Shown: positions 40,240-59,320 of the stretch, one piece after another
Position numbering within the stretch: the first letter of the stretch is position 1
Layout of the letters: every line of letters starts with the position of its first letter
From: Martinezella rhizogenes
GTDB lineage: Bacteria > Pseudomonadota > Alphaproteobacteria > Rhizobiales > Rhizobiaceae
Direction of reading: 5' to 3'
NCBI RefSeq assembly: GCF_027460065.1
Contig: NZ_JAPYZZ010000001.1
Location: 702,501-766,500, forward strand
Length of the DNA stretch: 64,000 nucleotides
The notes under the pieces: generated by a model
The model's input: the letters and a program-made list of their open reading frames with translations, nothing else
Told to the model about the DNA's origin: nothing
Database searches by the model: none
Program-made: the position numbers and the translations under genes

Positions 40240-40255
40240 TGTTTCACGTGAATCC
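40240..40255 (+). promoter_or_regulatory. parS: parS-like ParB site 1
   Basis: TGTTTCACGTGAATCC: perfect left half GTTTCAC, one change in the right half, which creates GAATC (40250-40254). Located between trpF and the metallopeptidase gene, about 14.4 kb from oriC. Confidence 0.8.
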
Positions 40256-40279
40256 AGATGGCGATGCACGCCGCCGGTT

Positions 40280-41047
40280 TCAATCGAAATCGATAGCGTG
40301 AAGTTTGGAGCCATGGCGTTTCAGCCATTCCTTGACTTCATTGGTGTGCGGGCAGAGCTTTTCACACAGTGCCCAGAATTTCGGGCCGTGGTTCATTTCG
40401 CTGAGATGCGCGACCTCATGAGCGGCGAGATAATCAATGACCCTTTCCGGGGCCATGACGATACGCCAGCAGAAACTCAGGTTTCCATCATGGGAACAGG
40501 AGCCCCAGCGGCTGCGCGTATCCTTCATGCTGATGGACCGCACGGGCCGTCCGGCAGCGTGGGCATGAATGGCAACCAGCCGTTCCAGATCGGCCTTCGC
40601 TTCCTTTTTCAGGAAGGTCGCAATCCGCCGCCTCAGATGCTCCGGCGCACCGCTGACTTTCAGAACAGCCACGCCATCAGCGTCTTTCGCGATGTGGGTC
40701 AGGCCCCTCAGGCTGCCGGTGTGTTCGATGCGGTGGGCGATGCCTCTGATATCGATGGTCGCACCGGGACGCAAACCGTCATCAGGGCTGAACTTCAAAA
40801 GTTTGCCTTCCAGCCAGCCCTGGTGCCTTTCGAGAAAATCATCCACCTGACGGTGATGCAAGCCCGTCGGGATCGTCAGCTTCAGCGCCCGGCCGCCCGG
40901 CTCGATGCGCAAGGTGATGCGCGTGGCCCGCGGGTTTTCCCTGACCGTGATCGGCACCTGTCGGCCCGCAACGGCGACGGTGCGCTGGCTCGGCGCGACC
41001 TTTTTGGGCGCCGGCGACTTCAGGGATTTTCTGAGGAGCGAAAACAT
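40280..41047 (-). CDS. YgjP/DUF45-type metallopeptidase-like protein
   Basis: 255 residues. The zinc motif HEVAHLSEMNHGPKFW (HExxH with a third His eight residues on) and TRSRWGSCSHDGNLSFCWRIVMAP are the signatures of the DUF45 (M48-like, WSS/YgjP) family. No signal peptide; probably cytoplasmic. Substrate unknown. Members have been linked to varied activities, so a protease role is only a family-level guess. The 69-bp gap to phaZ has no hairpin I would call. Confidence 0.85.
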   Translation of the reverse strand: MFSLLRKSLKSPAPKKVAPSQRTVAVAGRQVPITVRENPRATRITLRIEPGGRALKLTIPTGLHHRQVDDFLERHQGWLEGKLLKFSPDDGLRPGATIDIRGIAHRIEHTGSLRGLTHIAKDADGVAVLKVSGAPEHLRRRIATFLKKEAKADLERLVAIHAHAAGRPVRSISMKDTRSRWGSCSHDGNLSFCWRIVMAPERVIDYLAAHEVAHLSEMNHGPKFWALCEKLCPHTNEVKEWLKRHGSKLHAIDFD

Positions 41048-41116
41048 GAAGCCTTCATAACCGATTCGTCCATCCCTTGGCCACGCAAATGCGCGGCCTC
41101 ACCTGCCGTTTCACCC

Positions 41117-42349
41117 TTAGGCCATCCGGTGTTTACCGATGAAATCCAGCATGCGCGGCACGATTTCCTTGCGGAAGCGCGAACCGTTGAAAACGCCATA
41201 GTGCCCCACATCCGGCTGCATGTAATGAGCGCGTTTGTCTTCGGGGATATTCCGGCAGAGATCATGGGCCGCCTTTGTCTGGCCGACGCCAGAAATATCG
41301 TCATTCTCGCCTTCGACCGTGAACAATGCGACACTGCGGATCGCTGCGGGATCAACCGCCCTGCCCCGGTGCAGCATGTTTCCCTTCGGAAGCGCATGGT
41401 CGATGAAGACGGTTTCCACTGTCTGGAGATAGAATTCCGCTGTCAGATCCATCACAGCCAGATATTCATCGTAAAACTCACGATGTTTTTCAGCGGAATC
41501 GCCGTCATTCTTGACGAGGTTTAGGTAAAAATCCTTGTGCGCCGTCATGTGCTTGTCGAGGTTCATGGACATGAAACCCGACAGCTGCAGGAAACCCGGA
41601 TAGACATTACGGCCGAAAGCCGGCTGCGGCCACGGCACCTGCATGACGACATTGTCGCGAAACCATTCGATCGGCTTGGCCTTGGCAAGTCCGTTGACGG
41701 CAGTGGGATTGATACGCGTATCGATCGGCCCACCCATCAGCGTCATGGAGGCCGGCGCAAACTCATCGCGATCTGCCTCCATCAGGGAAACGGCAGCCAG
41801 AACCGGCACGGATGGTTGACAGACGGCAACCACATGGGCGCCGGGGCCGATATGCCGCAACATCTCGATGACATAGTCGATATAATCATCGAGATCGAAG
41901 GTTCCTTCCGTTGCCGGCACCATACGGGCATCGGCCCAATCGGTGATGTAAATATCGGCCGAGGGCAACAATGCTTCCACGGTGCCGCGCAGCAGGGTTG
42001 CATAGTGGCCGGACATCGGCGCTACCAGCAGCACTTTCGGGTCGGACTGGCGGGCCGGATCGAGTTCCTTTTTGAAATGAACGAGGTTGCAGAACGGGCG
42101 CGACCAGACGGTCTCCTCCGTGACAGCAACAGCCTGGCCATCAACGACCGTGGAGCCGAGGCCAAATTCCGGCTTGATGTAACGGCGCGTCAGGCGTTCG
42201 AAAACCTCGAAGCCTGCGTCGAGACTTCTGCCGAAAGCCGTGCTGGACAACGGATTGAGAGGATTGTTGCAGGCCTGGCGCATCATATCGGCGCCGGCAC
42301 GCAGCGGCGCCATGGCCGCATGGTTCATTTCATAGAGGTGGTAGAACAC
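41117..42349 (-). CDS. phaZ: Intracellular polyhydroxyalkanoate depolymerase
   Basis: 410 residues. Start GTG 42349 (VFYHLYEMNHAAMAP), chosen for the GGGAGG 8 nt upstream and because the family begins with FY-L-E-NHA. The nucleophile motif is a Cys variant of the lipase box, VVAVCQPSVPVLAA, as usual for intracellular PhaZ. The C-terminus ends PDVGHYGVFNGSRFRKEIVPRM with the catalytic His. It breaks down stored polyhydroxybutyrate granules; no other PHA genes are in the window. Confidence 0.94.
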   Translation of the reverse strand: MFYHLYEMNHAAMAPLRAGADMMRQACNNPLNPLSSTAFGRSLDAGFEVFERLTRRYIKPEFGLGSTVVDGQAVAVTEETVWSRPFCNLVHFKKELDPARQSDPKVLLVAPMSGHYATLLRGTVEALLPSADIYITDWADARMVPATEGTFDLDDYIDYVIEMLRHIGPGAHVVAVCQPSVPVLAAVSLMEADRDEFAPASMTLMGGPIDTRINPTAVNGLAKAKPIEWFRDNVVMQVPWPQPAFGRNVYPGFLQLSGFMSMNLDKHMTAHKDFYLNLVKNDGDSAEKHREFYDEYLAVMDLTAEFYLQTVETVFIDHALPKGNMLHRGRAVDPAAIRSVALFTVEGENDDISGVGQTKAAHDLCRNIPEDKRAHYMQPDVGHYGVFNGSRFRKEIVPRMLDFIGKHRMA

Positions 42350-42412
42350 TGATGACGCCTCCCTCGCGATCACGCTCTTTTTTTGACCATAGCAGCTTTT
42401 CGCAGGTGCACA

Positions 42413-42448
42413 AAATTTAAGGCGCCAGCGGTCTCCCGCCAGCGCCTC
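42413..42448 (-). terminator. Terminator-like hairpin after the FAH-family gene
   Basis: GGCGCCAGCGG (42421-42431) and CCGCCAGCGCC (42436-42446) pair except for two central positions, around a TCTC loop. Read leftwards it is followed by TTAAATTTTG. Confidence 0.65.
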
Positions 42449-42474
42449 ACTTTTCGTTGAATGCCTGCTGGCGA

Positions 42475-43317
42475 TCAGATGTCGGCGACGAAAGTCTGTT
42501 TCTGGGAACCGAGGCCCTCGATGCCGAGTTCCACGACGTCACCAGCCTTCAGGTAACGCGGCGGCTTCTGACCCATGCCGACGCCGGGAGGGGTGCCGGT
42601 GGAGATGACATCGCCGGGGTGCAGCGACATGAACTGGCTGAGGTAGGAGACAACGTGGGCGACGCCGTAAACCATGGTTTTGCTGGAACCGTCCTGCATG
42701 GTCTGGCCATTGACCTTCAGCCACATGCCGAGGTTCTGCGGATCGGCGATTTCTTCCTTCGTCACCAGCCAGGGGCCGATGGGGCCGAAAGTGTCGCAGG
42801 ACTTGCCCTTTGTCCACTGACCGGCACGTTCCGTCTGGAAGGCGCGTTCGGAAACGTCGTGCGAAACGCAATAACCGGCGACATAATCGAGCGCGTCCGC
42901 TTCGGAGACATATTTCGCGGTCTTGCCAATAACGACGCCAAGCTCGACTTCCCAGTCGGTCTTTTCCGAGCTGCGCGGAATGGTGACGTTATCGTTCGGA
43001 CCGACGATGGCCGAGGTCGCCTTCATGAAAATGACCGGTTCCGGCGGTACGGTGGCACCCGTTTCGGCGGCATGGTCGGAGAAGTTGAGGCCGATGCAGA
43101 TGAATTTTCCGGTACCGGCAACGCAGGCACCGATGCGCTCTTCGCTCAACACCGGCAGGGTGGCGGGGTCGATCGCGGCGACCTTCTTGAGACCCTCGGG
43201 AGAAATCGCGTCACCGCCGATATCTTTCACATGGGCGGACAGATCGCGGATTTTTCCTTCCGCGTCGAGGATTGCTGGTTTTTCCTGGCCGGGTTGGCCA
43301 ACACGCATCAACTTCAT
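42475..43317 (-). CDS. Fumarylacetoacetate hydrolase family protein
   Basis: 280 residues. The FAH fold covers ~70-280: ICIGLNFSDHAAETG, metal-binding acidic residues in TDWEVELGVVIGK and SHDVSERAFQ, and DVISTGTPPGVGMG. This subgroup includes ureidoglycolate lyase-like and 2,4-diketo-3-deoxy-sugar acid hydrolases, and annotation often confuses them. Nothing nearby decides the substrate. Divergent from the nitroreductase gene with 128 bp between starts. Confidence 0.88.
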   Translation of the reverse strand: MKLMRVGQPGQEKPAILDAEGKIRDLSAHVKDIGGDAISPEGLKKVAAIDPATLPVLSEERIGACVAGTGKFICIGLNFSDHAAETGATVPPEPVIFMKATSAIVGPNDNVTIPRSSEKTDWEVELGVVIGKTAKYVSEADALDYVAGYCVSHDVSERAFQTERAGQWTKGKSCDTFGPIGPWLVTKEEIADPQNLGMWLKVNGQTMQDGSSKTMVYGVAHVVSYLSQFMSLHPGDVISTGTPPGVGMGQKPPRYLKAGDVVELGIEGLGSQKQTFVADI

Positions 43318-43445
43318 GGAACTCTCTCCCGGTTGTCAGACAAGGTGATGCATATATGAACGATGCATTCATACTTGTCACCCCTTGACTGCGCCAAGTT
43401 TCGAAAAATACCTTTTCCTTCCCGGCAATCAAAAGGACATGGCCC

Positions 43446-44048
43446 GTGACGAACAGCAATTCCCGGCAATCAGAATATCCCGTCGATCCCCTCTTTCTGG
43501 ATCGCTGGTCTCCGCGTGCCTTTGATGGCAGTGCCATATCGCAGGAACATCTGCTGACCATTCTGGATGCGGCCCACTGGGCGCCTTCGGCATCCAACCT
43601 GCAGCCATGGCGATTTGTCTATGCCCATAAGGACAGCGAAGACTGGCCACTCTTCGTGGAGCTGCTGATGGAGGGAAACCAGCGTTGGGCAAAAAATGCC
43701 TCGGTGCTGCTGTTCGTCGTTTCCCGGGGCTACAATATCTCCCGCGAAGGCGAGAAAAAACCTTCCGCGACCCATTCATTCGACGCCGGAGCCGCCTGGT
43801 TTTCACTCGCGATGCAGGCGCATCTGCTCGGGTATCACGCCCACGGCATGGGCGGCATCCTGAAGGACAGGATCGTTGAAGCGCTGGATATTCCTGAAGG
43901 CTACAAGGTAGAAGCCGGCATCGCTATCGGCACGCTGACCGACAAGTCGGTTCTTCCCGACGATCTGGCGGAACGGGAAGTGCCAAGCAAGCGCCTGCCG
44001 CTTGCGGAAGTGGTTTTCGAAGGTCGCTTTACCGGCAAGGTCGATTGA
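43446..44048 (+). CDS. Nitroreductase family protein
   Basis: 200 residues from GTG 43446; AAAAGGA lies upstream. FMN-binding signatures: RWSPRAFDGSAIS, HWAPSASNLQPWRFVY, and HGMGGILKDRIVEALDIPEGYKVEAGIAIG. Cytoplasmic NAD(P)H-dependent flavoenzyme of unknown substrate. It ends at a strong bidirectional terminator shared with gyrB. Confidence 0.9.
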   Translation: MTNSNSRQSEYPVDPLFLDRWSPRAFDGSAISQEHLLTILDAAHWAPSASNLQPWRFVYAHKDSEDWPLFVELLMEGNQRWAKNASVLLFVVSRGYNISREGEKKPSATHSFDAGAAWFSLAMQAHLLGYHAHGMGGILKDRIVEALDIPEGYKVEAGIAIGTLTDKSVLPDDLAEREVPSKRLPLAEVVFEGRFTGKVD

Positions 44049-44069
44049 TCTCAGGCAATCAAGATACAC

Positions 44070-44104
44070 AAAAGGCCCGGCGATCAATAATCGCCGGGCC
44101 TTTT
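44070..44104. terminator. Bidirectional terminator between the nitroreductase gene and gyrB
   Basis: AAAAGGCCCGGCGAT (44070-44084) pairs perfectly with ATCGCCGGGCCTTTT (44090-44104) around CAATA: a 15-bp stem with A/T tracts on both sides. Confidence 0.92.
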
Positions 44105-44114
44105 GTTAAAGTTT

Positions 44115-44130
44115 CGTTTCACGTGAATCG
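44115..44130 (+). promoter_or_regulatory. parS: parS-like ParB site 2
   Basis: CGTTTCACGTGAATCG: left half intact, right half changed to contain GAATC (44125-44129). It sits between the terminator and the gyrB stop codon, about 10.5 kb from oriC. Confidence 0.75.
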
Positions 44131-44151
44131 TTACGTGTGGCACCCCACAGA

Positions 44152-46623
<2,472 letters not shown>

Positions 46624-46745
46624 TCAGTGAGAAGGCCTGAAGCCAGCGAATCACTCAAATCCGACATGCGACTATAGAAATTCTACACCCAATCCCAAAG
46701 GCCGCATGCTTCGGGATGCTGAATAAAGCAGGGGATAGAGGGGTT

Positions 46746-47111
46746 TCAATCGCAAGAACGGCTTTTTTGCAGCACGGCTGACAGTTCCTCTACCACACTC
46801 GGCGACAGCTTGCGAATATCCCGTGCGAGACGGTTAGCGAAAGCCGTATATTGCGGCGGCAGGCCCACCGTATCGATCACCACCTTCGGGTCTGACGAAC
46901 CGGCCAGAAAGAACAATTCTTCCGCCTCGTCCCAGATGATGTTGAAATAGCCGGCAATGCGCTGCAGCAGATCGAAGCTCGGCTTGCCGCGCTTGCCATG
47001 CTCCAGCGCCGAAAGATAGGCCGGCGATACACCGATTGCCGCAGCCATTTCCTTCTGCGTCACGCCTTTGCGTTCACGAAGCTGCCGCACGGCTTCCGCA
47101 AAAGGCGTCAT
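46746..47111 (-). CDS. XRE-family helix-turn-helix regulator
   Basis: 121 residues. A Cro/C1-type helix-turn-helix covers residues 5-62 (LRERKGVTQKEMAAAIGVSPAYLSALEHGKRGKPSFDLLQRI). The C-terminal ~55 residues are alpha-helical without a known ligand-binding domain. Its start overlaps the Smr gene stop by 4 bp, so it is the last gene of a four-gene operon. Target unknown; autoregulation of the operon is possible. Confidence 0.85.
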   Translation of the reverse strand: MTPFAEAVRQLRERKGVTQKEMAAAIGVSPAYLSALEHGKRGKPSFDLLQRIAGYFNIIWDEAEELFFLAGSSDPKVVIDTVGLPPQYTAFANRLARDIRKLSPSVVEELSAVLQKSRSCD

Positions 47112-47680
47112 GATTTTTCACCGCGCCGCCGCGAAAGCCGCACATAAAGCGCGCCGTCACCGCCATGATTGGCCGAGGCGTCTTCATAGGACGAGATCAG
47201 GTAGCGATATTCCGGTTTGGAGAACCACATAGGAACCGCTCTTTTTAAAGCACCATCGCTACCGATCGAGCGCCCCTTGCCGGTGATAACCAGCACATGG
47301 CGAAGGCCTCGTTCATGCGCCCGCAGCAGGAAATCCAGGAGCACCGCATGGGCTTCGCTCTGGAACATGCCGTGCAGATCGATCCGCCCTTCCAGCGGCA
47401 GCCGACCACGGGTGAGCTTGCGCTTGACCGGTTTTTCCATCGGCTGATGGGTTTTCGGCTTTTTATCCGGTGTCGCAGCAGGCGGTGCTTCCGCCGCCTC
47501 TACAAGCATGCGCGGAAATGCACTTTTGCCGGTTTGCGGAACGGTAGGTTCCAGTGCGGGTTCTTCTATGTCGTCGAAAGCCAGCAAATCTTCCAGCCTG
47601 CCGGAAATCGGCCGCGTGGTTTTTGCGACCCTTCCCCACAATATGCGTTCTTCCTTGCCGAGCTTACGACTGCCTTTCAT
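47108..47680 (-). CDS. Smr domain protein
   Basis: 190 residues. The C-terminal Smr (small MutS-related) domain lies at ~95-185: RIDLHGMFQSEAHAVLLDFLLRAHERGLRHVLVITGKG, with the DLHG and TGKG motifs typical of Smr nucleases. The N-terminal half is low-complexity and charged. Function in bacteria is unclear (E. coli SmrA/SmrB relatives act as RNA endonucleases; SmrB cuts mRNA between collided ribosomes). Overlaps both neighbours by 4 bp. Confidence 0.88.
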   Translation of the reverse strand: MKGSRKLGKEERILWGRVAKTTRPISGRLEDLLAFDDIEEPALEPTVPQTGKSAFPRMLVEAAEAPPAATPDKKPKTHQPMEKPVKRKLTRGRLPLEGRIDLHGMFQSEAHAVLLDFLLRAHERGLRHVLVITGKGRSIGSDGALKRAVPMWFSKPEYRYLISSYEDASANHGGDGALYVRLSRRRGEKS

Positions 47681-48789
47681 CGCCGATACCTCTCCGCAGC
47701 AACCCGCGGCAGCAATATATAAAAATCGGCCTCGTTGCGCACCGTGCCGGCGAGCTCTCCCGCTTCGAAACCGGAGCCGGTGAAAATATCGCCGCGTGCC
47801 GGGCCGATGATGGCCGAGCCCGTATCCAGCGCCAGCATCAGCCGGGCGAAGGGCTTCCCATCGTCCAGATGGGTCAGTGTGGGCGCGTGGATGAAGAACG
47901 GCAGGCCGAAGGTGTGGATCAGCCTATCCACCGCAAGCGCACGGCCCGCAACCAGCGGCACCTTGGCAGCGGCAATCGGCCCCATATCCAGACCGGCGAC
48001 ATCCGCCTCCCGGAAAAAAATATAGGAGCGGTTGTGCCACAGCACCCCGTCCACCTCATCCGGATGATCGGCGAGCCACTTGCGGATCGTCTGCATCGAG
48101 ATTGTTTTCGGATCGAGCTCGCCGCGATCGAGAAGCAGCCGGCCAATCGGCGAAAAGGCTTGCCCAGCCTTGGCTGCGTAGGTGATGCGCTTTATCGCGC
48201 CATCCGGAAACACCAGACGCGCCGCACCCTGCACATGGACGAAGAAGAGGTCGACCTTCGATCTTGCCCAAGCGATCTCGAGACCCCTGCCCTGCAGACA
48301 CCCCTCATCGATGGCGCGGCGATCGGGAAAATAGGAAATGCCGTTTTCATCCGCCTTGCCGAAAGCATAGGACGGATCGAAACCATCAGGCCGGTTGGCG
48401 TCGTCAATATCCACCAGCTCGGGCGGCCGACGGTAGATCGGGTAACGCCAGACATCGTCAGGCGCTACGGAGACTTCCAGCTCGGGCTCGTAAAAAGCAG
48501 TTACGAAACCGCTTTTTCCCTGGGCCGGGGAAATCCTGAAAGGCACACAATGGCTTTCGAAAAACTGGCGCGCCTGTTCCGGGCTGTTAACCTGGCTGCT
48601 CTCGGCGAACTCCAGCAGCGAAACGAGTTCCGCGGCCGTTATACCGAGTGCACCGGTCCTGTAGGGTTTAGCATTGCGAAGATGCAACAGGATCGTTGCC
48701 ATCGCCGGAAAAAGCTTACTGGGATCGTCTTCCCGCCATCCGGGTAGATCGCCGAACGAGACTTCATCGATCGAAAAGGGCGTATTCAT
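47677..48789 (-). CDS. mltA: MltA-type lytic murein transglycosylase without signal peptide
   Basis: 370 residues. MltA domain (~100-260): GFVTAFYEPELEVS, DMGPIAAAKVPLVAGRALAVD. C-terminal 3D domain with the catalytic-type LDTGSAIIGPARGDIFTGSG. Unlike E. coli MltA there is no lipobox or signal sequence: the protein begins MNTPFSIDEVSFGDLPGWRED. In the same frame a stop lies 13 codons upstream, so no missed leader is possible. The start overlaps the Tim44-like gene by 4 bp. Confidence 0.93.
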   Translation of the reverse strand: MNTPFSIDEVSFGDLPGWREDDPSKLFPAMATILLHLRNAKPYRTGALGITAAELVSLLEFAESSQVNSPEQARQFFESHCVPFRISPAQGKSGFVTAFYEPELEVSVAPDDVWRYPIYRRPPELVDIDDANRPDGFDPSYAFGKADENGISYFPDRRAIDEGCLQGRGLEIAWARSKVDLFFVHVQGAARLVFPDGAIKRITYAAKAGQAFSPIGRLLLDRGELDPKTISMQTIRKWLADHPDEVDGVLWHNRSYIFFREADVAGLDMGPIAAAKVPLVAGRALAVDRLIHTFGLPFFIHAPTLTHLDDGKPFARLMLALDTGSAIIGPARGDIFTGSGFEAGELAGTVRNEADFYILLPRVAAERYRR

Positions 48790-49484
48790 TGCTCGGATTC
48801 GGTGGCGATCAGCTTCCAGTTCGGGTCACGCGAGCGGATGTCGCGCGAGAAGGTCCAGATGTCATCCACCTCCGCAACCGCTTCCGGATCTCCATCCACC
48901 AGCTTGCCGTCCTTGTCATAGGTTGCCGAAATCAGCTGGCTGACAATCCTCAGCGTCACCTGCACTTCGGAATCGCGCACGCCGGCCTGGGTGATGTCAG
49001 CTTTCTCGATACCAACAAAGGTGGATTTTACCACTTCGCCACGGCTTTCACGCTCGGAAATCGCCGCCTCGAAACCGTCGAAGACCTCTTTCGACAGAAG
49101 GTTCTTCAGCGTCTTGCGATCGCCATCGGCAAAACCCATGACGATCATTTCGTAAGCCATGCGGGCGCCGTTCAGGAATTCCTTGGGCCTGAAGGACGGA
49201 TCCTTGGTCATCACATCGCGCAGCGATGCATTTAGCGGGGTATCGGCAGGCGCGAGCGCATCTGCCTCTGCAAAACGGTTCTCGTCTTCCGCCTCACTGC
49301 GCTTCGGCAAGGTCACGACCTTGTTATCGTCAGCGGCGGGGCCCTTTGCCACATCACGGGGGCTATAGGGGTCGAATGGTGGCTTTTCATTGCCTGTGCG
49401 ACGGCCGAGGACACTGCGCAGCTGAAAGAAGATCAGCACCGCTGCAACGAGAAAAAACAATGTGATAAAGTCGCTAAAGCCCAT
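48786..49484 (-). CDS. Tim44/TimA-like membrane-anchored protein
   Basis: 232 residues. One membrane segment at residues 4-24 (SDFITLFFLVAAVLIFFQLRS), a linker (~25-90) rich in charged residues, then a Tim44-like domain at ~90-232 (FLNGARMAYEMIVMGFADGDRKTLKNLLS). In mitochondria Tim44 tethers the import motor; in alphaproteobacteria TimA-like proteins are membrane proteins of uncertain role. First gene of the operon with mltA, smr and xre, divergent from fxsA across 140 bp. Confidence 0.88.
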   Translation of the reverse strand: MGFSDFITLFFLVAAVLIFFQLRSVLGRRTGNEKPPFDPYSPRDVAKGPAADDNKVVTLPKRSEAEDENRFAEADALAPADTPLNASLRDVMTKDPSFRPKEFLNGARMAYEMIVMGFADGDRKTLKNLLSKEVFDGFEAAISERESRGEVVKSTFVGIEKADITQAGVRDSEVQVTLRIVSQLISATYDKDGKLVDGDPEAVAEVDDIWTFSRDIRSRDPNWKLIATESEQ

Positions 49485-49624
49485 GTTTTACCAAAACCGC
49501 CATTTAAAATCAAAAACCACACCATCATATAGTCTGCATCTTATCATCATTCAAATGTGCAGATTCAATCATCGGTGTCCCGGGAACCGGCAATCTGCCA
49601 GAGATGCACACGCAAGGCTAGAAG

Positions 49625-50161: not shown

Positions 50162-50264
50162 CCGCCACATGGAATCGATGGCGATGACGCGATCACGAAG
50201 GGTTGTAAGCCCCGGGTCGAAATGATAGACCGCCTTCCACGAATTCACGCCGCGAGGAACCGTA

Positions 50265-50747
50265 ATGACCGCTGAAAATGGCGCACAGGGCGCAGTTAGC
50301 CCTTCTCTCAATATTCTTGCCCAGTACATCAAGGATCTCTCTTTCGAAAATCCGGGTGCTCCTCGTTCGCTGCAGGGCCGTGAGAATGCGCCGGCGATCA
50401 ACATCAACGTCAATGTCAACGCAAACCCGATCTCCGGTTCGGATTTCGACGTTGTTCTGACGCTGAACGCGGAAGCCAAGGACGGCGACAAGATCCTGTT
50501 CGCGGCCGAGCTGGTTTATGGCGGCGTGTTCCGCATTGCCGGCTTCCCGCAGGAACACATGCTGCCGGTCCTCTTCATCGAGTGCCCGCGCCTGCTCTTC
50601 CCCTTCGCCCGCCAGATCATTGCCGATGTCACGCGTAATGGCGGTTTCCCGCCGCTGATGATCGACCCGATCGATTTCTCGCAGATGTTTGCGCAGCGCG
50701 TTGCCGAGGAACAGGCCAAGGCCCAGGTTCAGGCTGTCCCGAACTAA
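50265..50747 (+). CDS. secB: Protein-export chaperone SecB
   Basis: 160 residues. SecB signatures: [50 protein letters not shown] and [39 protein letters not shown] precedes ATG 50265. Keeps preproteins unfolded and hands them to SecA. An intrinsic terminator follows. Confidence 0.98.
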
Positions 50748-50779
50748 ACGGCACGCACCGCTTTTCATTGCAGACAAAA

Positions 50780-50808
50780 CAAAACCCGGGTTCTTCGCCC
50801 GGGTTTTT
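50780..50808. terminator. Terminator between secB and dnaQ
   Basis: AAACCCGGG (50782-50790) and CCCGGGTTT (50798-50806) around TTCTTCG, with AAAACA before and TTTTTCTTT after; works for both convergent genes. Confidence 0.9.
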
Positions 50809-50845
50809 CTTTGGCCGATTTGCCATTTCAAAGTCTGGGCGGGCT

Positions 50846-51544
50846 TTAGTTCTGGTAGCGGTTCCAGATCGCCTTGTCGCCCATGCCGAGAACGAGTTTG
50901 CCGTGGGCCGCGACCGTTTCCGCATCCAGCCTCGAGGGCAGAGCGCTTGGCCGTTGCAATGGCTCAAGGGGCACTTCTTCTTCAACGACAATCGTTTCCT
51001 GCCTGGCGGCAGAGCCAAAACCGAGCGCCGTCTGGCGACCACCGATCATTTCAATATAGACTTCGGCCAGAAGCTCGGAATCGAGCAGCGCGCCGTGTTT
51101 GGTGCGGTGGGAATTGTCGATACCGTAACGGCGGCAAAGAGCATCCAGCGAATTCGGCCCCATCGGGTTCTTGCGACGGGCGAGTGAAAGCGTGTCCGTC
51201 ACCAGCTCGGCGGAAACCGGCTCGATGCCAAGACGCGCGAATTCCGCATTGATGAAGCCCATGTCGAAGGTCGCATTATGCGCCACCCAGCGCGCGCCAT
51301 CGAAGAAGTCACGGATCTGGTCGACGACTTCTGCAAATTTCGGTTTGTCCTTCAGAAATTCATCGGTGATGCCGTGAACGGCAAGCGCGTCCGGATGAAC
51401 CTTGCGATCCTCCGGGCTGATATAAAGATGCAGCGTGCGGCCAGTGGGAAAATGATTGATCAGTTCGATGCCGCCGATTTCGATCACGCGGTCCAGCTTC
51501 GATTCGAGGCCCGTAGTTTCCGTATCGAAAATGATCTCACGCAT
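50846..51544 (-). CDS. dnaQ: DNA polymerase III subunit epsilon (proofreading exonuclease)
   Basis: 232 residues. DEDDh exonuclease motifs: ExoI EIIFDTETTGL, ExoII WVAHNATFDMGFIN, ExoIII HRTKHGALLDSELLAEVY. The C-terminal ~55 residues are the less conserved region that binds the alpha subunit. Last gene of the leftward run ppsR-maf-aroE-coaE-dnaQ that begins at oriC; 20 bp after coaE. Confidence 0.96.
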   Translation of the reverse strand: MREIIFDTETTGLESKLDRVIEIGGIELINHFPTGRTLHLYISPEDRKVHPDALAVHGITDEFLKDKPKFAEVVDQIRDFFDGARWVAHNATFDMGFINAEFARLGIEPVSAELVTDTLSLARRKNPMGPNSLDALCRRYGIDNSHRTKHGALLDSELLAEVYIEMIGGRQTALGFGSAARQETIVVEEEVPLEPLQRPSALPSRLDAETVAAHGKLVLGMGDKAIWNRYQN

Positions 51545-51564
51545 TCATCTCTCCGCGGCGCGAC

Positions 51565-52146
51565 TCAAGCGCCCAGTTTCTCCAGGATTGCTTTTACCTG
51601 ATCCCGTGCCGCTTCGACACCATTTCCCGAATCGACGACAAAATCGGCACGCCGGCGCTTTTCCACATCCGGCATCTGCCGGGCAAGGATCATTTCAAAT
51701 TTCTCTTCCGTCATGCCGGGCCGGGATAAAACCCGCTCGCGCTGGATCTCCGGCGCGCAGCTCACCACCACGACTTTATCGACGCGGCCTTCCGCCCCCG
51801 TTTCGAACAGCAAGGGTATGTCGAGCAGAGCAAAAGGCAGATCCTCTTTCTCTGCTTCAGCCAGAAAGGCCTGCTGCCTTTTACGGACCAGCGGATGAAC
51901 GATCTCTTCCAGCCTCGTGAAATTAGCCGGATTCTGCCGCAACATATCGCCAAGCTTCTGCCGGTCTACCATGCCGGAGATGGTAGTGCCGGGAAAGTCG
52001 GCCTCGATCAAGGGAACAGCTTCCGCACGATAAAGCCCGTGGACGACCTCATCGGAATCGAGAACCGGAACACCCTCTTCGGCGAAGAGCTTCGCCGTCG
52101 TGGTTTTTCCCATTCCAATCGAGCCGGTGAGACCGATGACGATCAT
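51565..52146 (-). CDS. coaE: Dephospho-CoA kinase
   Basis: 193 residues from ATG 52146 ([25 protein letters not shown] with the P-loop); a TTG three bases earlier is in frame but the ATG is more likely. The start shares one base with the aroE stop (TGATG), so translation is probably coupled. Last step of CoA synthesis; the first step, coaA, is also in this window. VHPLVRKRQQAFL is the second family motif. Confidence 0.96.
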   Translation of the reverse strand: MIVIGLTGSIGMGKTTTAKLFAEEGVPVLDSDEVVHGLYRAEAVPLIEADFPGTTISGMVDRQKLGDMLRQNPANFTRLEEIVHPLVRKRQQAFLAEAEKEDLPFALLDIPLLFETGAEGRVDKVVVVSCAPEIQRERVLSRPGMTEEKFEMILARQMPDVEKRRRADFVVDSGNGVEAARDQVKAILEKLGA

Positions 52147-53006
52147 CAATGTTTCTCCATATCCGCGATGATCAGGGAACGAAGGGTTTCATCCACCTCA
52201 GGCATCCCGCCAAACCATCGCTTGAAACCCGGTTTTGCCTGATGAAGCAACATGCCGAGCCCGTCGACGGTTGCCATGCCCTGCTCTTGCGCCATGGTGA
52301 GGATCGGCGTTTTCAACGGCACGTAGACGATATCGGTCACGACCGCATTGGCAGCGAGCTGTGAAAAATCGAGATACGGCGCTTCGGTTCCATCCATTCC
52401 GAGCGATGTCGTATTCACGAACAGCCCGGCACCCTGCATGACCTCCTGAAGCGCCGCCTGGGGATGGGAAAAGACCCGTGGGCCAAAACGGTCCGCCAGT
52501 TCGCGGGCACGCTCGACCGTGCGGTTCAGGACGTGGATTTCCGCAATACCCCGGTCACGTAGCGACTGAATGACGGCCCGGCTTGCGCCGCCGGCACCGA
52601 AAACTACCGCCCGGTCGGTCTTATCCCAGCCGGGATGCCGCTCATCCAGGTTCGAGACGAAACCGTAACCATCCGTATTGGTAGCGTGGAGTTTACCCTC
52701 CTCCATCCAGATGGTGTTGGCCGCACCGAGTTCTTCCGCCAGGGCATCGGGACGATCCGCCAGCCGGTAAGCCGCTTCCTTGTGCGGAATGGTGACGTTG
52801 CCGCCCACCGCCACACCCGGCTTGCCTTCCTTCAGCGTTGCAATGAAATTCGAGAAATTGTCCGGAGAGACCTCAACGGACTTATAGGAACCGGCGATAC
52901 CAAATTTTTTGAGCCAATAGGAATGGATGATCGGCGACCGGGAATGCTTGATCGGGTAACCGACAACGAAGGCATTTATAGTTAATGTTTCACGTGAATC
53001 AGCCAT
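52146..53006 (-). CDS. aroE: Shikimate dehydrogenase
   Basis: 286 residues from ATG 53006 ([13 protein letters not shown]). The frame runs to 53189 inside maf but is not family-like. Substrate site [16 protein letters not shown], catalytic Lys in [16 protein letters not shown]-binding [16 protein letters not shown] and NRT. The first codons contain a parS-like site (52986-53001) whose translation is the DSRET of the N-terminus. The start overlaps the end of maf by 8 bp. Confidence 0.96.
52986..53001 (+). promoter_or_regulatory. parS: parS-like ParB site 3, inside aroE
   Basis: TGTTTCACGTGAATCA: left half intact, changed right half contains GAATC (52996-53000). It lies in codons 2-8 of aroE, about 1.6 kb from oriC, and is the exact reverse complement of site 4. 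Confidence 0.82.
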
Positions 53007-53598
53007 CGATGACATCCATGTCTCGCAATTTCGATAAAAGAGGCAGAAGCGGCAGGCCGAGGATCGTGAAATAATCACCCTCGATGGAAGTGAATAGCTG
53101 GATTCCTTCGCCCTCAAGCTGGTAAGCACCGACGCTGCTAAGGGCCTTTTCCCCCACTCGCTGCAGGTGGCGGGAGACAAACTCAGCACTCAGAGTCCGA
53201 ACGGCAAGCTCGGCGCTGGAAACGGTTTGCCATACCACCTTACCCTTCCGAACAAGGACGGCCGCGCTATTCAGGCGGTGGACCTTATCTGACAATGACA
53301 GCAGATGCGCTTGCGCCTCCGCCATGGTTTTTGGCTTGTGATAAACGCGTGTGCCGAGCGCCATGGTCTGGTCGCAGCCGAGAACCAGTGCTTCCGGATG
53401 GAGCGCACTGACAGAAATAGCCTTGGCGCGGGCGAGTTCCAATGCAACCTCTTCTGGGCTGGCGCCGTCTCGTTCCAGTTGCTCGTCAAGCGCACGCTCG
53501 TCAATATCAGCGGGTATTGCCGAAAATGTCAGCCCCGCATTGCGCATCAGCATCTGTCGGGATGCACTGGACGAGGCGAGGATAAAGTCTTGTTTCAT
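52999..53598 (-). CDS. maf: Maf-like nucleotide pyrophosphatase
   Basis: 199 residues from ATG 53598 ([15 protein letters not shown]). Maf motif [18 protein letters not shown], catalytic region [12 protein letters not shown], and [28 protein letters not shown]. The family removes non-canonical or modified nucleotides (dTTP/UTP or m7GTP types); the subtype cannot be fixed here. It lies 31 bp after ppsR and overlaps aroE by 8 bp. Confidence 0.94.
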
Positions 53599-53629
53599 CG
53601 ACTGTCTGCTCCTGATGGTACGACCGGGA

Positions 53630-54451
53630 TTATCGTGTCCTCGGGCGAAGGGCAAGGATCGCCGCCGCCGTTTCCTCGATAGAACGGTGTGTGACATCTA
53701 TCAGAGGCCAGTTGTTGCGGGCGCAGAGAGCGCGCGCATATTTAAGCTCTTCCATGATCGTGGCTCGATCCGTGTAACGGCCACTGTCAAATCCGCCGGT
53801 TGCGCCTAGCTCCCTGTTTTCACGGACCTGCGATATTCGATCCGAAGTCGCAACGAGACCGACGATCAGAGGCCGGGTAGCGGCATAGAGGCTGTCGGGC
53901 AAAGGCACATTGGGAACAACCGGAATGTTCGCGGTCTTTATGCCCCTGTTGGCGAGATAGATGCTGGTGGGTGTTTTCGACGTGCGGCTGATGCCGATGA
54001 TGACGACATCGGCTTCATCGTAGGTCTCCGGCATCTGCCCGTCATCATGGTCCATGGCGAAATTGAGGGCTTCGATCCGCGCAAAATAATCGGCATTCAG
54101 GGCGTGTTGCGCGCCGACCCGCCTTCTCGACGGCGCACCGAGATAGGTCTGGAAGATGCCGATAATGGGTTCGAGAACGTTGACGCAGGGCACACCGATT
54201 GCATGGCAGCGCAGATCCAGGAATTCGGCCAGTTGCTGATCAACGATCGTATAAAGAACAATGCCGGGTTCCTTGTCGATGAGATCAATGACCTGCGCGA
54301 GCTGTTTCTGGTTGCGGATCAGAGGATACACATGTTCCACCGGCATGGAGGCATGGAACTGCGCCGAAACGGCGCGGCCGGCCGACATCAGAGTCTCTCC
54401 CGTCGAGTCCGAAATCAGGTGCAGATGGAAGAAGCTTTTTTTGTTCTCCAC
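53630..54451 (-). CDS. ppsR: Pyruvate, phosphate dikinase (or PEP synthase) regulatory protein
   Basis: 273 residues. Start GTG 54451 ([20 protein letters not shown]), with GGGGAG upstream; the frame to 54568 enters the origin region and is not family-like. P-loop-type [15 protein letters not shown] and [15 protein letters not shown] are signatures of the DUF299/PSRP family, bifunctional kinase-phosphotransferases acting on PPDK or PpsA. This is the gene called RP001 next to the Caulobacter origin. Confidence 0.93.
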
Positions 54452-54535
54452 GCTGTTTTTCTCCCCCTGTTGATAAACTTGGACAACTTTCTGAATTGCC
54501 CGACGGACGGAACCGCGAGGTGAATAAAGTGGTGT

Positions 54536-54544
54536 TTTTCCACA
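54536..54544 (+). promoter_or_regulatory. DnaA box, one mismatch
   Basis: TTTTCCACA, differing from TTATCCACA at the third base. Confidence 0.6.
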
Positions 54545-54624
54545 ATCCGCAAGTGGCGCATCTCGCATTCACGGCGCCTGTGAATTAGTGGAATAGTGCG
54601 GAACTGTTCAGAATTTTCCCCAGA

Positions 54625-54633
54625 TTATCCACA
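54625..54633 (+). promoter_or_regulatory. Consensus DnaA box
   Basis: TTATCCACA, identical to the consensus, the strongest DnaA box in the origin region. Confidence 0.85.
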
Positions 54634-54859
54634 GAGATGAGATTCATTGCCATGGAAACAAGTATTTGAAATTATTTAAATAATTCCAGTTTTCCCAATT
54701 ACCTCTAAACACTCACACGATCAATATCCGCAGGCACTGTTGAGATTTCGCTGCTGCGGCATTTCGACTGGACTGATTTTAATCCTTGCTACCCACAGAC
54801 TCTAAGAAATAGAAAATCTTTTAAATCTCTTTGTTTTTATTTTTTAGAAGCTGGGTGCC

Positions 54860-55894
54860 ATGAGCGAACGCAAGGTTATGACTGTTTTGAGTGGGAAGAC
54901 GGTTACGCCGCCGCCCATATGGCTTATGCGTCAGGCTGGCCGTTATCTTCCGGAGTATCGGGAAACGCGTAAGAGTGCCGGAAGTTTCCTGGATCTCTGT
55001 TATAATCCCGAGCTGGCGAGCGAAGTGACCCTTCAGCCCATTCGCCGGTTCGGGCTGGATGCAGCCATTCTTTTTTCCGACATTCTGGTGATACCCGATG
55101 CGCTTCATCGCAACGTATCCTTCAGCGAAGGCAAGGGTCCGGCCATGGATCCGATCGATGTGAGCGGTATCGAGAAGCTCGATGCGTCCGATGTCATGGC
55201 GCATCTTTCGCCCGTTTTCGAAACGGTGTCGCGTCTGCGCACCTCATTGCCGGGTGAAACGACGCTTCTCGGCTTTTGCGGCGCGCCCTGGACGGTTGCG
55301 ACCTATATGATCGCTGGGCACGGAACGCCGGATCAAGCGCCGGCGCGGCTGTTCGGTTATCAGGAGCCGGCCGCCATGGAAAAGCTGCTGGCTTTCCTCG
55401 CCGACGTCTCCGCCGATTATCTGGTGGCGCAGATCGATGCCGGGGCCGATGCGGTTCAGATCTTCGATTCCTGGGCCGGCGTGCTCGGCGAAAAGGAATT
55501 TGAGGAATATGCGATCAAGCCGGTCGCTCGCATTATTGCCTCGGTACGCGCCCGCCGGCCTTCGGCAAAGATCATCGCTTTCGCCAAGGGCGCCGGTTAT
55601 CTGCTGAAGGATTATCGTCGCAAGACGGGTGCTGACGCCATTGGCCTCGATTGGTCCGTGCCGTTGAGTTTCGCCCGGGATTTGCAGAAGGAGGGCGCGG
55701 TGCAGGGCAATCTCGACCCGATGCTGATGGTGGCCGGTGGCAAGGCCTTGCAGGATGGCATCGATGCCGTGCTGCAGGCGCTTGGGCAGGGTCCGCTGAT
55801 CTTCAATCTCGGCCACGGCATCACCCCGCAGGCGGATCCCGAAAACGTCACCCGGCTGGTGCAGCGGGTTCGCTCGGTTGGGGGTGCTGGATGA
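54860..55894 (+). CDS. hemE: Uroporphyrinogen decarboxylase
   Basis: 344 residues. [17 protein letters not shown] at the N-terminus and [16 protein letters not shown] are the two family signatures; QIFDSWAG follows. Converts uroporphyrinogen III to coproporphyrinogen III in heme synthesis. It starts right at the A+T-rich edge of oriC, so its promoter lies inside the origin. Overlaps hemJ by 4 bp (ATGA). Confidence 0.97.
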
Positions 55895-56436
55895 GTAACG
55901 AAAAACAGACCTCGGGGCGCTCCGGAAACAAAGCGGCTTTGCGCGCCGGCGTCGCGCTCGGTGTCTTTGCCGCCTTCATTGCGCTAGTTTTTTACGCCGA
56001 TCCAGCCGATCTCTATCTCTGGATCAAGGCACTGCATATCATCGCCGTGATCTCGTGGATGGCGGCGATTTTCTACCTGCCGCGGCTTTTTATCTATCAC
56101 ACCGATGCACCTGCCGGTTCGCAGCAATCTGAAACCTTCAAGGTGATGGAACAGCGGCTGATCAGGGTGATCATGAACCCGGCGATGATGATATCCTGGG
56201 TATTGGGGCTTTATCTCGCATGGTCGGTTTATGGTTTTTCCGGTGGCTGGCTGCATGCGAAGATCGGGCTGGTCGTGCTTCTGACCGCCACCCATGTTTA
56301 TTTCAGCCGCAGCGCGAAACGTTTTGCGCGGGATGAAAATACAAGACCGGCCCGTCACTGGCGGTTGATGAACGAAGTTCCGACCGTTCTGATGATCCTG
56401 ATTGTCATACTTGTGGTTGTGAAACCCTTTGGTTAA
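55891..56436 (+). CDS. hemJ: Protoporphyrinogen oxidase HemJ
   Basis: 181 residues, integral membrane protein with about four membrane segments. [30 protein letters not shown] holds the conserved His and is the HemJ signature; the C-terminal [26 protein letters not shown] is also typical. Oxidises protoporphyrinogen IX. Co-transcribed with hemE, two steps earlier in the same pathway. Confidence 0.95.
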
Positions 56437-56622
56437 GACGGTGCGACGATAAATTTCGCGGAATTCGTGCTTTCCTCTTGCAGCGGCCGTGTTCAATCGC
56501 TATTTTCAATCCACTCATCTTCGTGGCATGTGAATTATTCAGTCATCTGCGGTATCTCCCACAGCATCTGATTCGCGAACACGCCCTCCCCCGACATTAC
56601 ATTATCAAACGGTCTTCCCTTC
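56437..56622 (+). promoter_or_regulatory. C-rich leader of rho
   Basis: 186 bp between hemJ and rho. In the last 72 bases before the ATG I count 28 C and 10 G, and there is no purine-rich ribosome binding site (GGTCTTCCCTTC precedes the ATG). This composition fits a Rho-utilisation region and autoregulation of rho, as known for other bacteria. Confidence 0.5.
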
Positions 56623-57888
56623 ATGGCTGAAATGAAGCTTCAGGAACTTAAGAGCAAATCGCCTACCGACTTGCTGACTTTTGCCGAATCCCTGGAAGTT
56701 GAAAATGCGAGCACCATGCGCAAGCAGGAGCTTATGTTCGCAATCCTCAAGGTTCTCGCGAGCCAGGACATCGAAATCATCGGCGAAGGCGTCGTTGAAG
56801 TCCTGCAGGACGGGTTCGGGTTCCTGCGTTCTGCAAACGCAAACTACCTGCCCGGTCCAGACGACATCTATATTTCGCCCTCGCAGATCCGCCGTTTCTC
56901 GCTGAAGACCGGTGACACTGTTGAAGGGCCGATCCGTGGTCCAAAGGAAGGCGAACGGTATTTCGCGCTGCTCAAGGTCAATACGATCAATTTTGACGAC
57001 CCGGAAAAGATTCGTCACAAGGTTCACTTCGATAATCTGACGCCGCTTTACCCGAATGAGCGCTTCAAGATGGAACTGGAAGTTCCAACATCGAAGGATC
57101 TGTCGTCGCGCGTCATCGATCTCGTCGCGCCGCTCGGCAAGGGCCAGCGCGGATTGATCGTGGCGCCGCCGCGCACCGGTAAAACGGTTCTGCTGCAGAA
57201 CATCGCCCATTCCATCACGGCAAACCATCCGGAATGTTATCTGATTGTTCTTCTGATCGACGAGCGTCCGGAAGAAGTGACCGACATGCAGCGTTCGGTA
57301 AAGGGTGAGGTTGTGTCCTCTACCTTTGACGAACCGGCTGTGCGCCACGTGCAGGTCGCCGAAATGGTCATCGAAAAAGCGAAGCGCCTGGTCGAGCATG
57401 GACGTGACGTCGTCATCCTGCTTGACTCCATCACGCGTCTTGGCCGCGCCTACAACACCGTTGTTCCCTCCTCCGGCAAGGTTCTGACCGGTGGTGTGGA
57501 TGCCAACGCGCTGCAGCGGCCGAAGCGTTTCTTTGGAGCTGCGCGTAACATCGAAGAGGGCGGTTCGCTGACGATCATTGCGACTGCGCTTATCGATACG
57601 GGCAGCCGCATGGATGAAGTCATCTTCGAAGAGTTCAAGGGTACTGGCAACTCGGAAATCGTGCTTGATCGCAAGGTTGCCGACAAGCGTATCTTCCCTG
57701 CACTGGATATTCTTAAATCCGGTACGCGCAAGGAAGACTTGCTGGTGCCACGTCAGGACCTGCAGAAGATCTTCGTTCTGCGCCGTATTCTCGCACCGAT
57801 GGGAACGATGGACGCCATCGAATTCTTGATCGACAAGCTGAAGCAGACCAAGACCAATTCGGATTTCTTCGAATCAATGAATACCTGA
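56623..57888 (+). CDS. rho: Transcription termination factor Rho
   Basis: 421 residues. N-terminal RNA-binding domain with [37 protein letters not shown] and the cold-shock-type GFGFLRS. Walker [25 protein letters not shown]. Walker B region: [17 protein letters not shown] loops: [33 protein letters not shown]. Compact form without the long insertion seen in actinobacteria. The leader has no clear ribosome binding site. Confidence 0.98.
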
Positions 57889-57923
57889 TCCGAACTTTAG
57901 CCGGATTCATCATAAGAGCTTTA

Positions 57924-57963
57924 AAGCCGTATCCGTTCATTCGGGTGCGGCTTGACTGTTTTA
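57924..57963 (+). terminator. Terminator-like hairpin between rho and mnmE
   Basis: AAGCCGTATCCG (57924-57935) pairs with CGGGTGCGGCTT (57942-57953), with two G-T wobbles, around TTCATT; GACTGTTTTAG follows. It ends 15 bp before the mnmE start. Confidence 0.65.
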
Positions 57964-57977
57964 GACCGAGGTGAACG

Positions 57978-59306
57978 ATGTCAGCTTCCGCCGATACGAT
58001 TTATGCGCTGTCCAGCGGTGCCCTGCCGGCAGGCGTCGCTGTTCTCAGAATCAGCGGTGTGAGGGCTTTTGATGCCTTGAAGATGCTCACAGGCCGGGAC
58101 CTTCCTTCACCGCGAAGAACAAGCCTTTGTTCGATTCGGAATCGAAACAATGAGATCATCGACCAGGCCCTGGTGATTGTCTTTCCGGCCCCGAATTCCT
58201 TTACGGGTGAAAATTGTGTTGAAATTCACAGCCACGGCAGCCGTGCGGTCATGGCTTCCATTTTTACCGAGCTCGAAAGCCTTGAAGGACTGCGGCCCGC
58301 AGAGGCCGGTGAGTTTTCTCGCAGAGCTTTTGAGAACGGCAAGATGGACCTGCTCGAGGTCGAAGGTCTCGCCGATCTCTTACAGGCGGAAACGGAGATG
58401 CAACGGCGTCTGGCGGTCGAGCAAAGCAGTGGGCAATTATCGGCTCTCTATGATGGCTGGGCCAATCGCCTGACCCGCGCCCGCGCCCTGATCGAGGCGG
58501 AACTGGATTTTGCCGATGAAGAGGATGTGCCTGACTCTGTTGCTGCTCGAGTTTGGGAAGCGATGGTGGAGCTGAAGGGTGAAATCAGCAATCACCTTCG
58601 GGCGGGCGGAAGCGGCGAAATCATTCGTGATGGTTTTAAAGTAGCGCTTGTGGGCGAACCGAATGCGGGTAAATCAACACTACTTAACGCGTTGAGCGGT
58701 CGTGATGTGGCGATTGTCACTGACATTGCAGGTACGACCAGAGACGTTTTAAGCGTCGACATCAATCTGGACGGATATCTGGTGCGGGTATTCGATACGG
58801 CAGGAATTCGGGAAACACAGGATGTGGTGGAACAGGAAGGTGTGCGGCGCGCAGTTCTGACCGCGAAAACCGCAGATCTCATTCTACTGCTGCAGGACAA
58901 TGATTCGACCCCGAAACAATCTATCGATTCATTCGATAACCAGAGCTTCTTGCGTGTAAGAACAAAAACCGCGCTTCGCGTGCGCGTGCCTGATGATGAG
59001 TTTGATTTGTCGGTCTCTGCAAAAGAAGGGTTGGGCCTTGATGAATTGCGCTCAGCGCTCAAGCGAGAGATAGAAAAGCGGGTCGGTTCGGGCCAGACCC
59101 TGGTTCCCGCTCGTGCCCGTCATAAAAAACGGCTTGAAGAGACGCTGAACTATGTTAGTGATGCGCTCGATTCCGAGACCCTGGACCTTGCTATAAGGTC
59201 AGAATATCTAAGGCTCGCCGCAACATCGCTCGGACGGATCACCGGCCGTGTTGATGTGGAAGATTTGCTGGGCGTGATCTTCTCGGAATTCTGCATAGGA
59301 AAATGA
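57978..59306 (+). CDS. mnmE: tRNA modification GTPase MnmE
   Basis: 442 residues. N-terminal folate-binding domain (IYALSSGALPAGVAVLRISG), helical domain, inserted G domain with VGEPNAGKSTLLNALSGRDVAIVTDIAGTTRD, DTAGIRE, and the diagnostic C-terminal CIGK with the catalytic Cys. With MnmG it forms the cmnm5 group on U34 of tRNAs. The G-domain NKxD motif is not obvious (RVRTKTALRV). GAGGTGAACG is the ribosome binding site. Confidence 0.97.
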   Translation: MSASADTIYALSSGALPAGVAVLRISGVRAFDALKMLTGRDLPSPRRTSLCSIRNRNNEIIDQALVIVFPAPNSFTGENCVEIHSHGSRAVMASIFTELESLEGLRPAEAGEFSRRAFENGKMDLLEVEGLADLLQAETEMQRRLAVEQSSGQLSALYDGWANRLTRARALIEAELDFADEEDVPDSVAARVWEAMVELKGEISNHLRAGGSGEIIRDGFKVALVGEPNAGKSTLLNALSGRDVAIVTDIAGTTRDVLSVDINLDGYLVRVFDTAGIRETQDVVEQEGVRRAVLTAKTADLILLLQDNDSTPKQSIDSFDNQSFLRVRTKTALRVRVPDDEFDLSVSAKEGLGLDELRSALKREIEKRVGSGQTLVPARARHKKRLEETLNYVSDALDSETLDLAIRSEYLRLAATSLGRITGRVDVEDLLGVIFSEFCIGK

Positions 59307-59320
59307 TTCACGTGAAACAT
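59305..59320 (-). promoter_or_regulatory. parS: parS-like ParB site 4
   Basis: TGATTCACGTGAAACA: right half intact, changed left half contains GATTC (59306-59310). It begins inside the mnmE stop codon and lies about 4.7 kb to the right of oriC. It is the exact reverse complement of the site in aroE. Confidence 0.82.

Follow-up and report, generated by a model that had tools for sequence, protein, structure and literature searches.

The four degenerate parS sites around oriC of Martinezella rhizogenes are, with a probability of about 0.7, ordinary ParABS sites in which ParB would tolerate a change of T to A at position 3 of one arm, and whose common direction would result from overlapping stop codons, the loss of a partner site beside gyrB, and chance. 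In each of them, one arm is perfect and the other would be weakened by the change. The excess of A over C or G at this position in Hyphomicrobiales is outside the reach of stop codons and tolerance as explanations, and is treated separately below.

parS sites around oriC

The window analyzed here is a whole stretch of 64,000 nt of the forward strand of assembly GCF_027460065.1 (contig NZ_JAPYZZ010000001.1, positions 702,501-766,500). With up to two mismatches allowed, it holds five parS matches, whereas 100 shuffles gave 0.20 on average and never more than 2. Four of the five carry the A at position 3 of one arm, and the fifth is perfect. The features concerned are as follows, gene names having been assigned from the sequence.

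40241-40254, minus strand: parS, GTTTCACGTGAATC, one perfect arm; changed arm GATTC toward oriC; flanked by trpF and a DUF45 gene; no stop overlap
44116-44129, minus strand: parS, GTTTCACGTGAATC, one perfect arm; 22 bases after the stop codon of gyrB; inverted pair in relatives
44152-46602, minus strand: gyrB, upstream of the parS at 44116
52987-53000, minus strand: parS, GTTTCACGTGAATC, one perfect arm; TGA at 52999-53001 (minus strand) is the maf stop codon
52999-53697, minus strand: maf, stop codon inside the parS at 52987
54569-54859, no strand: oriC region, flanked by the PPRP gene and hemE; presumed DnaA box at 54625; located from gene context and GC skew
57978-59306, plus strand: mnmE, stop codon inside the parS at 59305
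59305-59318, plus strand: parS, GATTCACGTGAAAC, one perfect arm; TGA at 59304-59306 is the mnmE stop codon
61264-61881, plus strand: rsmG, containing the perfect parS
61285-61298, no strand: perfect parS, GTTTCACGTGAAAC, inside rsmG at codons V-S-R-E-T
61901-62695, plus strand: parA
62725-63606, plus strand: parB (TIGR00180, E 8.9e-54)

These sequences match exactly what the sequence-only reading had described, namely four sites in which one arm is perfect and the A of the other creates GANTC, and a perfect parS that lacks GANTC. All five are palindromes of 14-16 bases with at most one change from GTTTCACGTGAAAC, and a ParB with a TIGR00180 domain is encoded beside them. A genome-wide search with the pattern GNTTCACGTGAANC returned five sites, all near oriC and parAB. 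The ten-base core TTCACGTGAA is absent elsewhere in the 64-kb window and has two further copies on other contigs of the genome, neither of which fits GNTTCACGTGAANC. The sites resemble the canonical chromosomal parS of ParABS systems, TGTTTCACGTGAAACA, in their core, their clustering near oriC and the neighborhood of parAB and rsmG, and differ from it at position 3 of one arm in four of five cases. The exact strings GATTCACGTGAAAC and GTTTCACGTGAATC had no match in the literature.

The GC skew switches sign between the PPRP gene and hemE, and TTATCCACA, which we take to be a DnaA box, occurs at 54625 and at one other place in the window, 60679. With oriC lying between these two genes, the changed arm points toward oriC at all four sites, as had been proposed from the sequence. 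Such an outcome has a chance of 1 in 16, and the evidence that a single genome provides through direction alone is therefore weak.

Stop codons and inverted pairs

The TGA of TGATTCAC doubles as a stop codon at two of the sites, that of mnmE at 59305 and that of maf at 52987. Both genes point away from oriC, and for this reason the changed arm can only face oriC there; the sequence-only reading is silent on the stop codons that form two of its four changed arms. Where the first three bases of a site are an in-frame stop, as read for mnmE (47 loci), maf (60) and coaE (3), the arm that holds the stop is necessarily the A arm. In one of these maf sites, that of L169, the other arm is changed too. 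Sites that lie within 150 bases after the mnmE stop and are clear of it include 62 perfect ones, 12 with the A arm in the direction of the gene, 16 with the opposite direction and 2 with other changes; in one additional case, a perfect site overlaps the stop of mnmE in a different way. The A of the sites at mnmE and maf would be fixed because it turns TGT into the stop codon TGA.

Near gyrB, inverted pairs of sites 25 to 42 bases apart are present in 19 of 67 named loci. In these relatives, the partner site is inverted and faces away from oriC, whereas in the present genome, as in Agrobacterium, it has decayed. Judging from the remnant, the member of the pair that faces oriC would be the one retained in this genus. 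The direction of the fourth site, at 40241, may be a free coin toss. Taken together, the shared direction would be owed mostly to overlapping stop codons and lost neighbors, a simple trap in which the stop codons of genes running with replication can dictate the direction of a motif around oriC.

Direction in related genomes

Two sets of relatives were compared. The first comprises 84 stretches of the order from 82 genomes, of which 79 were chosen for family spread among the matches listed of 210 and were completed by G028, G029 (three pieces) and G025; the second comprises the 67 named loci, nearly all from Rhizobiaceae. A site of the form used occurs in 73 of these stretches and in 66 of these loci. 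All site counts contain homologous sites between genomes and are not independent, and the direction counts leave out four sites with both arms changed.

In the named loci, 160 of 179 A-variant sites point toward oriC and 19 do not. Together with the four out of four in the present genome, this is what would be expected if the orientation of the weak arm determined which way ParB loads or slides with respect to oriC. However, 99 of those facing oriC coincide with the stop codon of mnmE or maf, and 54 of the remainder, along with all 19 exceptions, come from a single homologous region between gyrB and a nitroreductase gene. Across the 84 stretches there is no general direction: 39 A-variant sites point toward oriC and 43 away, or 31 and 43 when the eight verified stop overlaps are removed (binomial p 0.20; verification covered the stops of 17 reference genes), and close pairs are direct in nine cases, convergent in four and divergent in four. 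Direction as a general rule is thus rejected, and the idea of a fixed orientation in related genomes fails outside close relatives. A role of polarity in ParB loading or sliding, contradicted as a general rule by these counts, is accordingly very improbable. KOPS-like motifs are polar and oriented with respect to the origin; the direction of the A-variant sites relative to oriC is inconsistent across genomes. In rsmG, an A variant at the VSRET codons lies the opposite way in six of six loci, giving VSRES (L168-L170, L182, L184 and L205), and L187 has an A variant elsewhere in rsmG that points toward oriC.

Bias toward A and binding by ParB

The A-only change is real and order-wide. Among one-arm variants at position 3 in the 84 stretches, 82 carry A, two C and one G (n = 85), and the change of T to A accounts for 82 of the 105 sites with a single mismatch. 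A change of T to C is the easier mutation. Both arms carried the A in none of the sites of the 84 stretches, as compared to 8.4 expected, and in one site of the named loci, as compared to 31.9 expected, both expectations assuming independent arms and taken over sites that are not independent. Stop codons as the sole cause of the A are rejected, because 74 of the 82 A variants from the stretches do not coincide with a verified stop.

Experimental work on a canonical parS, in the portion of the report available, showed that one-arm T3A and T3C variants are bound by ParB like the wild type, whereas symmetric changes, except those at positions 1-16 and 5-12, reduce binding to background; the authors suggested that ParB may keep its hold through the intact arm (PMC5450999). 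The same source describes parS12J of Ralstonia pickettii, which likewise retains a natural asymmetry with one favored arm and differs from the present sites in being of another parS type and sequence, with five repeats beside a plasmid-type parAB. By extension from the ParB of another species, ParB of this genus would tolerate the T3A change given a perfect second arm, and would bind the one-arm variant TGATTCACGTGAAACA. In Caulobacter crescentus, according to the accessible text, the parS sites have one conserved half in common and a degenerate other one, five bind ParB at low nM concentrations and sites 1 and 6 bind weakly; unlike here, the sites are clustered on the left arm, some 8 kb away from ori, and the available part gives no position-3 rule in favor of A (PMC5815017). 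For A. tumefaciens, enrichment of ParB1 at its own parS1 sites is described in the part of the report available (PMC9239152).

Tolerance alone predicts neither the excess of A, which outnumbers C by 82 to 2 although the published ParB accepts T3C too, nor the fact that further changes in A arms fall chiefly on the N of GANTC. One explanation, possible if still doubtful, is that the arm preference of ParB is altered in this order in such a way that A is accepted at position 3, as is a pyrimidine at position 4, whereas C or G at position 3 is rejected, with no role for methylation. It agrees with the published tolerance of one changed arm and with the concentration of the variant in the order, 33 genomes of which have 41 A-variant and 72 perfect sites, whereas 40 genomes from elsewhere in the class have 0 and 75. 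On the other hand, inspection by eye of the aligned DNA-binding region revealed no ParB residue separating A-rich from A-free families, and additive binding fails to explain why position 4 changes with A3 and position 5 with T3, barring a lineage-specific ParB.

GANTC and methylation

The sequence-only reading had also linked the changed arm to CcrM through GANTC, and this link stood in part. The pattern extends well beyond the present genome (82 of 85 variants) and further changes mostly keep GANTC, whereas its distribution does not follow CcrM. With 90 copies as against 351 in shuffles, GANTC is depleted about four-fold in the window, and the pattern occurs despite this avoidance of the motif. 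In 397 genomes of the order, A arms have further changes at position 4, the N of GANTC, in 36 cases (34 GACTC and two GAATC) and at position 5 in 11, whereas T arms have 15 and 90, respectively, an odds ratio of 19.6 by site, 7.2 by genus (p 0.0007) and 4.5 by family (p 0.03), the genus and family tallies having been made by hand. Of the arms next to a fixed ACGTGAAAC, 17 have exactly two changes; several of these are homologous, and every one is GACTC, which keeps GANTC. This contrast between positions 4 and 5 favors a role of methylation, namely that GANTC in one arm would be selected in Hyphomicrobiales, with CcrM methylation, or the hemimethylated state left by the passing fork, tuning ParB nucleation or a neighboring process irrespective of direction. 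The present genome has both GANTC in the arm and a gene of the CcrM type, as judged by the RAMA domain used as a proxy, which occurs in 199 of 199 genomes of the order, so that none of these could serve as a RAMA-less control.

Selection of this kind is nevertheless somewhat unlikely. The A variant does not track CcrM across taxa: it is absent from the 40 other alphaproteobacterial genomes, 38 of which are RAMA-positive, and presence of CcrM is thus rejected as a predictor across the class, while 7 of 146 genomes of other classes carry the variant with no RAMA match, two of them (L195 and L199) in a clear parS context. Within the order, 13 of 30 families with a site show no A variant in the stretch read. 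The lack of GANTC in perfect parS sites, GATCC arms (5 sites) and the 15 T arms changed at position 4 also speak against it. A bolder version, in which parS arms of Hyphomicrobiales are of two types, GTTTC and GANTC, the second kept by selection so that ParB nucleation at some of the sites could read the methylation state whatever the direction, is unlikely. It would describe a centromere with one arm as a CcrM target, its state set by the passage of the fork and late CcrM action, and methylation, if it were the reason, would link a cell-cycle methylase directly to the centromere. The available parts of the literature on parS, GANTC, CcrM and ParB, including PMC7383237, PMC8367383 and PMC7022226, contain no report of GANTC within a parS arm. 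The repABC origin and parS regions are GANTC-rich and share with the present sites the proximity of GANTC to parS in Alphaproteobacteria; in the accessible text, the motif lies near parS or in promoters rather than within the parS arm (PMC11514494, PMC9040568). The near-exclusive A at position 3 in this order, with further changes that tend to keep GANTC, poses a sharp and testable question.

A one-letter bias in the parS arm

Five parS sites surround oriC in the window, four of which combine one perfect arm with one in which T3 is replaced by A to give GATTC (positions 1 to 8 of an arm are those of TGTTTCAC), and the earlier observation of four one-armed sites with a GANTC-making change stands. 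The position of oriC, in the stretch that separates the PPRP gene from hemE, was assigned from the surrounding genes, the GC skew and a DnaA box. Among the named loci, those of Agrobacterium are closest, with up to 99 percent identity in the PPRP gene, which makes Agrobacterium the very probable genus. GANTC as such is depleted about four-fold across the window (90 versus 351 in shuffles).

Across 84 stretches, drawn from 82 genomes within the order (Hyphomicrobiales), there are 112 perfect and 105 one-mismatch parS sites, the latter dominated by T3 to A (82), with T3 to C (2), T3 to G (1), T5 to C (9), C8 to T (4), G2 to A (4) and A7 to C (3), against at most 0.2 per class in shuffles. In the 67 named loci, which are nearly all from Rhizobiaceae, 179 one-mismatch sites carry T3 to A and the only other one G2 to A. 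The A bias at position 3 is a real, order-wide feature. Sites with A in both arms number 0 in the 84 stretches, where independent arms would give 8.4, and 1 in the named loci (31.9 expected). This scarcity agrees with binding data for Burkholderia cenocepacia ParB on canonical parS: one-arm T3A or T3C variants bind like wild type, and symmetric changes, except at positions 1-16 and 5-12, reduce binding to background (PMC5450999). That one weak arm is tolerated is therefore expected; that A should outnumber C does not follow from it. Most likely, these would be ordinary one-armed parS sites, with ParB tolerating the changed arm.

Direction relative to oriC

The sequence-only reading held that the changed arm faces oriC at all four sites of the window. 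A variants in the 67 named loci do so in 160 cases and not in 19, a count that rests on few homologous places, as the mnmE and maf stop codons account for 99 of the 160 and the gyrB-nitroreductase region for 54 more together with all 19 exceptions. As a rule for the order this fails, with 39 facing oriC and 43 away in the 84 stretches, 31 versus 43 once 8 verified stops are removed (p 0.20), and 27 versus 39 outside the window's own family, also with verified stops excluded.

The last codons of mnmE are GGA AAA TGA, with TTCACGTGAAACA coming next, and maf has the same kind of ending on the opposite strand; at two of the four one-armed sites in the window the changed arm is thus a stop codon, where a perfect parS would put TGT. 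Over the loci read, the first three bases of parS are an in-frame stop 47 times for mnmE, 60 for maf and 3 for coaE; the genetic code makes any such stop arm an A arm, so the informative part is the number of sites covered. Because the genes adjacent to oriC point away from it, the stop-codon arm necessarily faces oriC. Sites within 150 bases past the mnmE stop and clear of it comprise 62 perfect parS, 2 with other changes, and A variants with the A arm in the gene direction (12) or against it (16).

At gyrB, two A variants in opposite directions lie 25 to 42 bases apart in 19 of the 67 named loci (Rhizobium, Neorhizobium, Allorhizobium and others), and one member faces away from oriC because the two oppose each other. 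The gyrB-side member is absent from Agrobacterium loci, where, judged by eye, L038 holds an apparent remnant and L084 an intermediate; the single direction of the window's gyrB site is therefore most likely the remainder of a pair. In L071, L074, L076, L086 and other loci the pair directly follows gyrB, mostly 25 to 28 bases apart. Judged by eye it could form a transcript hairpin of about 15 base pairs, and is perhaps a candidate terminator besides a centromere.

In all 6 loci that have an A variant at the VSRET codons of rsmG, it is reversed, away from oriC, and the codons read VSRES; one lying deeper within rsmG in L187 faces oriC, with the reading DSRET. The shared direction is therefore ordinary, set by local coding constraints and by history and not by oriC.

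GANTC retention and CcrM

The proposed tie between GANTC and the methyltransferase CcrM fared unevenly. In its favour, every arm in the loci that carries exactly two changes next to a fixed ACGTGAAAC (17 in number) reads GACTC, and A arms further changed at position 4 in 397 genomes of the order number 36 (34 GACTC, 2 GAATC, 0 GAGTC), the effect being that GANTC is preserved. A arms changed at position 5 number 11, near background because the reversed-pattern control totals 16 (4 for the position-4 search); T arms were changed 15 times at position 4 and 90 at position 5. The association persists when these four counts (36, 11, 15, 90) are collapsed to genera (14, 9, 8, 37; p 0.0007) or families (10, 7, 7, 22; p 0.03). 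Lineage differences in ParB could produce it, and families f27, f16 and f30 have their change at position 5 and no A variant within the stretches read. Counter-examples are GATCC in five genomes (G577, G209, G028, G537, G255) and GTCTC in family f26. For the methylation idea the association is suggestive, not proof.

Against the tie stands a survey of 219 Pseudomonadota genomes, with the RAMA domain as proxy for a CcrM-type gene, other GANTC methylases being possible. The 33 order members hold 41 A-variant sites in 18 genomes, besides 1 C variant, 2 G variants and 72 perfect sites. The 40 other Alphaproteobacteria hold 75 perfect sites, 2 C variants and no A variant, despite RAMA in 38. Among 146 genomes of other classes, 7 carry one A-variant site each, none with a RAMA match, and 4 others a C variant. 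Two of these seven sites lie clearly in parS context (L195, mnmG-mnmE interval; L199, parA-parB interval), three within about 5 kb of mnmE (L193, L194, L197), and two in stretches with no reference gene (L196, L198). Genomes with CcrM therefore do not all have the A variant, and some without CcrM do. A role for methylation at one-armed parS sites is possible but unlikely, at about one chance in four or five.

Other parS-like sequences

Inside the oriC interval, GACTCACGTGAAAC occurs in four loci of family f26 (L131, L132 and L134 near 10600; L135 near 9169) and GATTCACGTGAAACC in L130, both resembling ParB sites within the origin. At three places four parS-like sites form an array, with spacings of 34 to 49 bases and mostly GATTC or GACTC arms:

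Genome G266, contig C3, 17768-17897: array of four parS-like sites
Genome G250, contig C40, 13437-13567: array of four parS-like sites
Locus L148, 16029-16168: array of four parS-like sites in the mnmE-mnmG interval

Genome G029 (L185-L187) holds 13 parS-like sites, 11 of them across about 51 kb of one contig, with a GATTC arm in nearly all.
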